Assembly (NCBI GenBank): GCA_016288855.1
Contig: JAEELJ010000078.1
Location: 1-47,581, forward strand
DNA length: 47,581 nt
Direction of reading: 5' to 3'
Source of the DNA: Acholeplasmatales bacterium
GTDB lineage: Bacteria; Bacillota_I; Bacilli_A; Acholeplasmatales; Anaeroplasmataceae
The notes under the pieces are model-generated. The model was not told where the DNA came from and searched no databases. It was given only the letters and a program-made list of their open reading frames with translations. Below are positions 7,547 through 35,346 of the stretch, one piece after another (the stretch's first letter is position 1; each line of letters begins with the position of its first letter). The translations under genes and the position numbers were made by a program.

Positions 7547-7574
7547 TTTGTTCCTCCTGTAAAATTTTTAAATG

Positions 7575-7680
7575 AAAAAATCTTCTCATACCGAGGTACA
7601 AGAAGATTAATTGTTATAATCAAAAAGTTCCTCGGTAGGAAATTAAGGACACATAAATGTCCGCCTACTGTCTTCGGCTT
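7575..7680 (-). ncRNA. L10 (rplJL) leader with attenuator
   Basis: The RNA contains CCGAAGACAGTAGG (complement of 7664-7677) and CCTACCGAGG (complement of 7630-7639), the hallmarks of the Rfam-type L10 leader. GTAGG:CCTAC forms the L10-binding stem. TACCGAGG (7630-7637) can instead pair with CCTCGGTA (7589-7596) as antiterminator. The terminator is AATCTTCT (7601-7608) with AGAAGATT (7579-7586), followed by six Ts. The L10 stem and the antiterminator share three bases, so they exclude each other. L10 binding should therefore favour termination, as shown for B. subtilis rplJL. Confidence 0.92.
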
Positions 7681-7701
7681 AAATTGTTCAATATTGTAAA
7701 A

Positions 7702-32365: not shown

Positions 32366-33982
32366 TTATTCTACAGCAATAATGTATGAATAAATATCTT
32401 GCTGACCTGGAATGATTTCTACATCAAGGTTTTCATTAATTGATAATGCAATTTCTTCTAAAGCGTCTGCTTCCTCTTCAATAATATCCTTACCATAGAA
32501 GATAGTAACAACTTCAGAATCTTCATTAATAATCTTTTCAAGTAAGCTTCTTAAAGCGTCACTCTTTTCCTTTGTAGATACAACAATTTCACCATCAGTA
32601 ATACCCATGTAGTCACCAGCAGTAATCTTTACACCACCGATTTCAGTATCACGAATTGAATATGTAACCTCACCAGATGTAACAGATTCAATTTCAGCTT
32701 CCATTGTAGCAATGTTTTCTTCCATTGTTGCTTCAGAATTGTAACCAACTAAAGCAGCATAGCCCTGTGCAATTGTCTTAGCCTTTAATACAGAAACCTT
32801 AGTTCCTGATACTAAGCCTGCAGCTTGGTTAGCAGCCATGATTACATTACCATTGTTTGGAATGATAATAACATTCTTTGCATTACAAGCTTCAATAGCC
32901 TTAACGAAAGATTCAGTAGATGGGTTCATAGTTTGACCACCTTCAATAACGTAGTCAACACCCATTTCCTTAAATGTATTAATAATACCTTCACCGAAGC
33001 ATACAGAAACTAACGCAAAGTTCTTCTTTGGAGCTTCTTCCTTCTTAGCTTCAGGCTTCTTATACTTTAAGTTCTTAATTGTGATTTCAGTGAATTCACC
33101 TTGCTTTTGAGAAATTTCTAAAGCACGGCCTGGTCTATCTGTAGTAACAGATACAACAACTTCATTATCGTTTCTCTTTAAAGATAGCTTATCGCCAAGT
33201 AATGATAATGCAGCGCCTAAAACTTTTGCTTCAAATGCATCAGGCTTATTTAAAGATAAAGAGAATTCCATTTGATACATATATCCTGTATCAGTTGCTG
33301 TCATCTCTTCTTCAGTCTTTTCTTCTACATCAGTATTTTCTTCAACAAGATCTAAAATTTCACCCTTTAAGGCAAGTAGCATACCTTCAACAATCTTAAC
33401 GAAGCCAGCTCCACCAGAGTCTAATACTCCAGCTTCCTTTAATACTGGTAATAAGTTTGGAGTGTTCTCTAAAGCCTTATTAGCTTCCTTAGTATAATCC
33501 TCCATAAATGAAATTATATCTTCATATGACTTATTTTCTGTATTTTCAATTGCTTCTCTAATGACTGTAAGAATAGTACCTTCAACAGGCTTCATAACTG
33601 CCTTATAAGCAATTTCTCTACCTGAATCTAAGCACTTAATAAAATCCTGTAATGATAATTTATTTTCTTGTAATTCTAATGATTTAATTCCAACAAATAA
33701 TCCTCTAAAGAATTGTGATAGGATAACACCTGAGTTTCCTCTTGCACCCATTAAGCATCCTCTTGATAAAACCTTTGCGTTATCAACAATTGAAGATGAT
33801 TCACAATTTTCTAATTCTCTTACACCCGAAGTAACAGTCATTGACATATTTGTACCAGTATCTCCATCTGGAACTGGGAATACATTAAACATGTCGACTT
33901 GTTGTCTATTATTCTTTAAGTTGATGGCACCATTAATAACCATCTTCTTAAATAGTTCAACGTCAATATAGCTTACACTCAT
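32366..33982 (-). CDS. fakA: Fatty acid kinase subunit A (DAK2/DegV-type, YloV)
   Basis: A 538-residue protein. The N-terminal DhaL-like kinase domain has NVFPVPDGDTGTNMSMT (PDGDTGTN at 38-45), whose aspartates bind Mg-ATP, and GARGNSGVILSQFFRG. A middle linker is rich in Glu, and the C-terminal domain (from about 320) resembles DegV-like folds. FakA phosphorylates fatty acids held by a FakB protein; no fakB is in the window. ATG 33982 has AGGAGG. The Asp23-family gene usually before it (yloU) is missing; instead an unusual leader of about 270 bases precedes it. Confidence 0.93.
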   Translation of the reverse strand: MSVSYIDVELFKKMVINGAINLKNNRQQVDMFNVFPVPDGDTGTNMSMTVTSGVRELENCESSSIVDNAKVLSRGCLMGARGNSGVILSQFFRGLFVGIKSLELQENKLSLQDFIKCLDSGREIAYKAVMKPVEGTILTVIREAIENTENKSYEDIISFMEDYTKEANKALENTPNLLPVLKEAGVLDSGGAGFVKIVEGMLLALKGEILDLVEENTDVEEKTEEEMTATDTGYMYQMEFSLSLNKPDAFEAKVLGAALSLLGDKLSLKRNDNEVVVSVTTDRPGRALEISQKQGEFTEITIKNLKYKKPEAKKEEAPKKNFALVSVCFGEGIINTFKEMGVDYVIEGGQTMNPSTESFVKAIEACNAKNVIIIPNNGNVIMAANQAAGLVSGTKVSVLKAKTIAQGYAALVGYNSEATMEENIATMEAEIESVTSGEVTYSIRDTEIGGVKITAGDYMGITDGEIVVSTKEKSDALRSLLEKIINEDSEVVTIFYGKDIIEEEADALEEIALSINENLDVEIIPGQQDIYSYIIAVE

Positions 33983-34106
33983 TGTATAAACCTCCTACAA
34001 TAATAACAATATAAATTTTTATATATGGTAAGTAGTTTTTCCTTCAACTACTTTTTATTTTTTATTAATAAAAATAAATGAATTTTTTGAAATAAAAATA
34101 AATTAC

Positions 34107-34232
34107 CTATAATTGATATAGATAGTTCATTGAATGGTTTTTTCTAAAGCCATCAAAACAAACACACACCATCACATCATCCTTTTTGCCGTTGTAATCA
34201 ACTTGGATAACCCCAAACTTCAAGTTAGCCAT
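34107..34232 (-). CDS. Possible 41-codon small ORF at the 5' end of the fakA transcript
   Basis: An ATG at 34230-34232 opens 41 codons ending in TAG at 34107-34109. The peptide begins MANLKFGVIQVDYNGKK and ends NYLYQL; it has alternating hydrophobic residues, as in a beta-hairpin, and no signal peptide. The stretch uses TTG, GGG, GGC and GTG codons more than neighbouring genes, and is much richer in G/C than the surrounding spacer. It begins about 20 bases after the start of the predicted fakA transcript, with no Shine-Dalgarno. I do not recognise the product. A structured RNA or a remnant of a lost gene are alternatives, and an open frame on the opposite strand (34134-34244) shows that openness alone is weak evidence. 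Confidence 0.3.
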   Translation of the reverse strand: MANLKFGVIQVDYNGKKDDVMVCVCFDGFRKNHSMNYLYQL

Positions 34233-34250
34233 AGCGGACACTAATAACGA
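34110..34250. other. Composition island in the fakA-rpmB intergenic region
   Basis: The spacer 33983-34426 is very AT-rich except for this stretch of about 140 bases, which is near 40% G/C by eye. It holds the 41-codon frame on the minus strand and a 36-codon frame on the plus strand, plus an AACTTG/CAAGTT inverted pair near 34198-34226. Between it and fakA a hairpin AAGTAGTT/AACTACTT lies near 34030, followed on the plus strand by a T-rich run. No known RNA family was recognised. Confidence 0.5.
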
Positions 34251-34258
34251 TTGTATTC

Positions 34259-34287
34259 AATATATCACTTTCTAAACAAAAAGTCAA
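34259..34287 (-). promoter_or_regulatory. Sigma-A promoter reading toward fakA
   Basis: TTGACT (complement of 34282-34287) and TATATT (complement of 34259-34264) are 17 bases apart. Transcription would begin near 34252, just before the 41-codon frame, giving fakA a leader of about 270 bases. A weaker promoter closer to fakA is possible. Confidence 0.75.
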
Positions 34288-34426: not shown

Positions 34427-34615
34427 ATGGCAAAGTGCTATGTAACTGGTAAGACAACTGTTACCGGAAACAAAAGATCTCATGCTTTAAATGCTACTCG
34501 TCGTACTTGGAAGGCAAACTTACAAACAGTTCATATCAAGGACGAAAACGGAAACGTTAAGAAGGTTAAGGTTTCTGCTAGAGCATTAAAGAAGGGCAAC
34601 CTTGAAAGAGCTTAA
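34427..34615 (+). CDS. rpmB: Ribosomal protein L28 (bL28)
   Basis: A 62-residue L28, nearly the full length of the Bacillus protein. The N-terminus [22 protein letters not shown] and the end [15 protein letters not shown] match the family. It has only one cysteine, so it is the zinc-free form. AGGAGG (34414-34419) lies 7 bases before the start. It is transcribed alone, with its own promoter and terminator, and is the only plus-strand gene in a long minus-strand block. Confidence 0.97.
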
Positions 34616-34643: not shown

Positions 34644-34667
34644 AACTGGCTTTAGCCAGTTTTTTTG
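34644..34667 (+). terminator. Intrinsic terminator of rpmB
   Basis: ACTGGCT (34645-34651) pairs with AGCCAGT (34654-34660), followed by a run of Ts ending at 34666. Confidence 0.9.
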
Positions 34668-34683
34668 CGCCATAAAAATATTA

Positions 34684-34703
34684 GGGTGGATTAAAATCCA
34701 CCC
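34684..34703 (-). terminator. Intrinsic terminator after rpe
   Basis: GGGTGGAT (34684-34691) pairs with ATCCACCC (34696-34703) around a 4-base loop. TAATATTTTT follows on the minus strand, and a T-run follows on the plus strand, so it may act both ways. Confidence 0.78.
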
Positions 34704-34707
34704 TTTT

Positions 34708-35346
34708 TTACATTTCTTGTAATTTCTTTAAATTTGCTATTTGGTCTTCTGCATTACATACAAAAGAACCTGATACTGCTAAATCTAAGTAATCCTTAAC
34801 CTGTGGTAATGTTTTATCATTTATACCACCATCAATATTAATTAGATAATTATATCCAAATTCTTCTTTTAATTCCTTTAGTCTCTTAGCCTTTTCAATT
34901 GAATTAGGCATAAACTTTTGCCCACCAAATCCTGGTTCAACAGACATAATTAAAACCATATCTAGATATGGTAATAATTCTTCTATTACCTTAACTGGAG
35001 TTTTAGGCTTAATTGATATACCAGCCTTAATACCATATGAATGAATTAAATCTATTACTTCCTTTGCATTACAATCAGCTTCAATATGGAATGTAATATA
35101 TTGGCTTCCTGCATCAACGAATTCCTTAATATAGTTTTGTGGGTGTCTTATCATAAGATGTGTATCAAAAGGCTTATCAGTAAGCTTTCTTAATGACTTA
35201 ACAAACGCAGGTCCTATAGAAATATTAGGAACAAATTCACCATCCATTATATCCATATGAACATAATCAGATGCCTTCATAACTTCGCCAACTGAATTTT
35301 TAAAATCTGAAAAATCAGCAGTTAAAATAGATAATGAAACTTTCAT
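34708..35346 (-). CDS. rpe: Ribulose-phosphate 3-epimerase
   Basis: A 212-residue TIM-barrel enzyme converting ribulose 5-phosphate to xylulose 5-phosphate. SLSILTADFSDF opens the barrel, YVHMDIMDGEFVPNISIGP carries metal-binding His and Asp, DTHLMIRHP carries another His, and LIMSVEPGFGGQKF and INIDGGIN complete the phosphate site. It overlaps the rsgA stop by 4 bases (ATGA). rsgA-rpe is a common Bacillota pair. Confidence 0.97.
   Translation of the reverse strand: MKVSLSILTADFSDFKNSVGEVMKASDYVHMDIMDGEFVPNISIGPAFVKSLRKLTDKPFDTHLMIRHPQNYIKEFVDAGSQYITFHIEADCNAKEVIDLIHSYGIKAGISIKPKTPVKVIEELLPYLDMVLIMSVEPGFGGQKFMPNSIEKAKRLKELKEEFGYNYLINIDGGINDKTLPQVKDYLDLAVSGSFVCNAEDQIANLKKLQEM

Follow-up and report, generated by a model that had tools for sequence, protein, structure and literature searches.

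A predicted structured cis-acting leader of fakA in a rumen-type lineage of Acholeplasmatales

In many Firmicutes, the yloU-yloV (asp23-fakA) genes are joined in a conserved operon (PMC5437119). Two kinds of stabilising leader are described in Bacillus. The STAB-SD of cry3A from B. thuringiensis binds the 3′ end of 16S rRNA; it does not start translation there, and it blocks RNase J1 (PMC4113751). The 5′ stem-loop of the aprE leader of B. subtilis is cited as a stabiliser in PMC3997798. Here we analysed a 47,581-nt stretch (the window) of G000, a metagenome-assembled genome (MAG) of a rumen-type Acholeplasmatales lineage, in which fakA is divergent from rpmB (34427-34615, identified from sequence). 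An initial annotation had marked a G/C-rich island at 34107-34252, upstream of fakA, as a possible small gene or structured RNA. Judged from sequence comparison, the island is the start of a structured non-coding leader and not a small gene. The features of the locus are listed below (SD, Shine-Dalgarno sequence; G004, the sole relative with the island sequence).

34259-34287, minus strand: fakA promoter TGATATATT, with TTGACT, a 17-bp spacer and an extended -10 TATATT (TG before the -10)
34168-34251, minus strand: 5′ domain of the leader (G/C-rich island), for which a branched structure is predicted with AUCGUUAU/GUGAUGGU as its closing stem; single copy, with G004 as the only other genome that has it
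34107-34241, minus strand: open frame with 44 codons when read from GTG and 41 when read from the first ATG
34173-34187, minus strand: purine-rich SD-like motif AAAAAGGATGATGTG, a possible upstream site of ribosome binding; strong in relatives, weak in the window
34132-34154, minus strand: hairpin P2 GATGGCTTTAGAAAAAACCATTC, with paired changes in the G004 version GTGATTTTAGAAAAAATCATC (folding and comparison with G004)
34105-34126, minus strand: further leader hairpin ACTATCTATATCAATTATAGGT, predicted by folding only
34030-34053, minus strand: hairpin P3 AAGTAGTT-GAAGGAAA-AACTACTT, a covarying stem before the SD (25/25 leaders; model R2)
34020-34027, minus strand: CATATAT motif CATATATA, lying within a few bases downstream of P3 and conserved in nearly every leader
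33991-33996, minus strand: true fakA SD, AGGAGG, in a structure-depleted region (sequence; folding over 35 leaders)
32366-33982, minus strand: fakA (fatty acid kinase subunit A), with Dak2, FakA-like_M and FakA-like_C domains

The fakA promoter and the extent of the leader

Leaders of fakA were extracted from relatives (n = 27: 26 of the same genus and L031), and a later set (n = 35) covered two genera, g1 and g6. Promoter-type matches in this AT-rich DNA numbered 14, against 12.8 expected by chance. The match alone is therefore at about chance level, and the promoter was judged real because it is conserved at the same place in relatives. TTGAC, followed by 16-18 bases and an extended -10, stood at this place in all 27 extracted leaders, and 10 further genomes of the second genus, g6, had an equivalent promoter there. 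The promoter that the initial annotation had placed upstream of the island was thus confirmed, with an equivalent in every same-genus genome that has DNA at this position. No terminator-like site was found by a scan of the minus strand from 34259 to fakA. Measured from the -10, the leader is 277 bases long in the window and 138-277 bases in 25 of the 27 leaders; the exceptions, L012 and L013, measure 58 and 100 bases. From these sequence features we infer that the fakA promoter drives transcription through a non-coding 5′ leader of ~260 bases, which runs to the fakA SD and is longer than the 146-base island.

Several other features of the locus and its genome were noted. The MAGs that hold L012 and L013 carry 7-8% contamination; these two leaders could therefore belong to foreign contigs, or else represent variants of the lineage. 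A second promoter lies inside the fakA leader, followed by the palindrome AATGTTAAATGAATTAAACATT, in L015, L021, L023, L025, L031, L032, L055 and L099-L108. This palindrome is absent from the window; in the window's genus it occurs at most once per genome, mostly at fakA. It could be an operator, or else an element of the start site. The palindrome ATGTTAAATGAATTAGACAT behind the second promoter was considered as a regulon operator and rejected; it matches at most once per genome, mostly at fakA and never in the window genome, and therefore there is no regulon. Terminator-like hairpins follow rpmB at 34644-34661 and 34683-34704; the latter could work on either strand and separates rpmB from a convergent rpe-like gene (34708-35346). 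The Rfam L10_leader (ribosomal protein L10 leader) was matched at 7566-7695 of the window, minus strand, with 72.1 bits. Another FakA-like protein, diverged to 47% identity, is encoded at G000:C53:48332-48919 and also in many relatives.

Conserved elements of the leader

The best-supported part of the leader is the hairpin P3, which lies outside the span first annotated; 34107-34252 does cover the 5′ half of the leader, but it is too short and leaves out P3 and the rest. The 3′ edge of P3 was found 21-33 nt upstream of the SD in 25/25 leaders (Stouffer Z -11.5 versus dinucleotide shuffles). As a negative control, the rpmB leaders that diverge from fakA at these loci were put through this test and gave a Stouffer value of -0.05. 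MAFFT alone misaligned the hairpins, and six cases without gaps were therefore used as the seed of a model. In alignment A5, which was fitted to the hairpin model and leans towards structure, the covariation of P3 was 0.744, compared with 0.182 for shuffles and no more than 0.145 when the partners were slid, and 56 alignment cells were changed on both sides, against 13.3. Both the stem and the loop sequences vary freely among species while the pairing is kept.

A covariance model, R2, was built from 34 leaders and placed the P3 module in 34/35 leaders of the two genera, its input leaders matching by construction. With this model the window P3 scored 33.8 bits, the top place in its genome, and nearly every g1 or g6 genome had its best match, or one close to the best, at the fakA leader. 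Elsewhere there was essentially no R2 match of comparable score, and the others that we inspected stood upstream of unrelated genes; with the first covariance model, the other strong matches were T-box terminators of the window genome. The other matches of the P3 models were judged to be chance. The sequences thus point to a P3 module essentially confined to fakA leaders and kept by compensatory changes in both g1 and g6, which are related genera from gut and rumen. P3 is not indispensable, because L012 (G001) and L013 (G012), of the same genus, have short fakA leaders without it. P3 was also considered as an intrinsic terminator, and rejected since it has no U run and was not called by the terminator scan, and as a DNA operator, rejected since its stem sequences change while the pairing stays.

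Downstream of P3 follow the CATATAT motif and then the open SD region. The surroundings of the SD were less structured than shuffles (mean z +0.78 over 35 leaders), and the whole leader folded more strongly than shuffles (mean z -1.52 over 35 leaders).

At the 5′ end, the G/C content was 0.349 over 34107-34252 and 0.392 over 34156-34252, compared with 0.199 upstream and 0.134 downstream, and the island is indeed richer in G/C than its surroundings, as had been annotated. Among 160 genomes of the order, its sequence was found as a single copy and in G004 only; beyond that there were just 18-23 base matches, judged to be chance, and searches gave one short weak match to phages and none to viral contigs. 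Between the window and G004, the leader segment 34258-34156 was 93% identical, compared with 76% at the third codon positions of fakA, and the first ~85 leader bases were conserved above the synonymous sites of fakA. The island is considered to be under constraint because the first value exceeds the second. The predicted fold of the 5′ domain is the same in both, and every one of the four differences found from 34252 to 34168 falls in one apical loop region of it. The folding energy of the island itself is ordinary (z -0.37), and the evidence for an RNA is therefore evolutionary, not energetic. Hairpins equivalent to P2 were recognised by eye in L006-L011, L014 and L027.

In most leaders, the SD-like motif precedes the true SD by ~100-130 nt (Stouffer -10.2 over 35 leaders), as AAGAGGTGATTT in g6 and as GAAAGGATGAT, GAGGTG or GGAGAGTG in g1. 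The window motif stands ~180 nt before the SD with z 0.13, is outranked by another site of the same leader and was recognised through its similarity to L007, L008 and L010. The duplex with the 16S 3′ end, an assumed sequence as this end was not found in the window MAG, had -8.2 kcal/mol for the window motif and -11.4 kcal/mol for the true SD. A start codon at usable spacing follows the motif in 11/35 leaders, window and G004 included. The idea of a hidden or an exposed motif was dropped, its accessibility (0.35) showing no clear difference from the leader average (0.40). Most g6 leaders (L099-L105) also have conserved AGAGTCGAATTGTGTC and TTTGGAAGAGTTG after the motif. The motif is reminiscent, by analogy, of STAB-SD mRNA stabilisers.

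Alternative readings of the island and the leader

The initial annotation had offered a leader peptide or small protein as one reading, and the 41-codon frame that it described in the island does exist. Its remark that a Shine-Dalgarno sequence is missing holds at the start of the frame but not at an inner ATG (34172), where AAGGA stands seven bases upstream and a 21-codon frame begins. Translation of the 44-codon or the 21-codon frame would be in line with the open frame itself and with the SD-like bases at usable spacing before the inner ATG, present in both the window and G004. However, in G004 the long frame is broken by a stop and by a change of frame, while the mini-frame has 4 codons; identity by codon position is 84/88/84% in the frame and 93/96/76% in fakA; a Pfam search of the frame gave no family match; and the other leaders have neither a matching peptide nor a consistent start. 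At the protein level, the frame is not kept and shows no codon-type substitution pattern, while at the RNA level, the other of the two comparisons first suggested, the P3 stem covaries and the leader changes follow no codon pattern. We consider a translated product extremely improbable. The same annotation had rightly noted that the island occupies the place of yloU (Asp23) in other Bacillota (PMC5437119), between rpmB and fakA, and had raised a remnant of a lost gene. Of 40 related genomes, however, 39 lack Asp23 (PF03780), among them every searched genome from the other families of the order; the single match, in MAG G005, stands beside a second fakA copy and not at the place of the island. 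With no Pfam match in the frame, and with a leader that is under constraint and not decaying, a decayed yloU has virtually no chance of being correct.

A separate, trans-acting small RNA gene would account for the island having its own promoter, a high G/C content and conservation between two species, but no terminator separates it from fakA, the conserved elements extend to the fakA SD, and the leader architecture is wider than the island sequence with its two species; this reading is highly improbable. The annotation had also suggested a regulatory RNA sensing fatty acids. A regulatory RNA is supported as a structured cis-acting 5′ leader, not as a sensor, and the 5′ domain is not conserved in sequence across the genus. 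A riboswitch or ligand-sensing RNA, for fatty acids or acyl-phosphate for example, would agree with a strongly folding leader before one metabolic gene and with a 5′ domain nearly unchanged between the window and G004. Conservation of that domain sequence in two species only is unlike an aptamer, though, and the leader has no terminator and no CCUCC-type SD-hiding stretch was seen in it. Rfam searches of the window and 20 relatives, at gathering and relaxed thresholds, gave only chance matches in the leader region. We regard a riboswitch as very unlikely. Less improbable, yet still unlikely, is an RNA-binding protein that recognises P3 and CATATAT and switches fakA translation. A conserved single-stranded motif adjoining a hairpin is typical of protein sites, and here P3 and CATATAT have a fixed, fakA-specific place beside the ribosome-binding site; against this, the loop and stem of P3 vary freely, P3 does not overlap the SD, and no candidate protein was identified.

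Proposed role and comparison with known systems

The region 34287-33983 (minus strand, promoter included) very probably encodes a cis-acting structured leader of the fakA mRNA, as its pattern of conservation indicates. Such a leader would set fakA expression in cis, after transcription start, and it probably tunes the persistence or the translation efficiency of the mRNA. As its most likely mode of action we propose, by analogy, that of a 5′ stabiliser and translation-initiation leader, a specific model that we rate about as likely as not. The 5′ hairpins and the SD-like motif, as a docking site for 30S subunits, would shield the RNA from the 5′-3′ exonuclease RNase J, and P3 would act as an insulator that holds upstream structure off the AU-rich, open ribosome-binding site. 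It is a distinctly speculative extension that P3 with CATATAT, the variable 5′ domain and upstream ribosome docking make up a new leader class, which would sense lipid or translation state and adjust the synthesis of the fatty-acid kinase.

A literature search on the regulation of fakA by its leader found nothing relevant. The fakA leader is lineage-specific and new as a named element, having no Rfam match, but it is known in kind. A single-gene leader backed by covariation offers a defined RNA with which to test how rumen bacteria control their use of exogenous fatty acids. The leaders of the relatives may in addition form a natural series of the STAB-SD-like type, in a lineage that lacks yloU.

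As in the yloU-yloV operon, fakA is preceded by a promoter, which stands where the operon promoter would be; the order, however, is nearly without yloU, and the space is taken by a non-coding leader. The T-box leaders of the window genome resemble the P3 arrangement in having a hairpin ~22-25 nt before AGGAGG. Those hairpins have a U run, serve as intrinsic terminators and come with the T-box sequence, whereas P3 has no T-box and, in place of the U run, CATATAT. The aprE leader, as far as it is described in the citing paper, likewise joins leader hairpins with ribosome binding in a low-GC Gram-positive bacterium; compared with that description, P3 lies near the SD and not at the 5′ end, and the 5′ hairpins of the fakA leaders are not conserved in sequence. 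Like the STAB-SD of cry3A, the SD-like motif of the fakA leaders is a purine-rich element of the 5′ UTR at a long distance before the true SD. Most leaders offer no start codon that could be used with it, and the organism has RNase J-type enzymes (two such genes in the window genome). In contrast to cry3A, the fakA motif is weak in the window, degenerate among relatives and placed among hairpins, and mRNA stabilisation is its candidate role.
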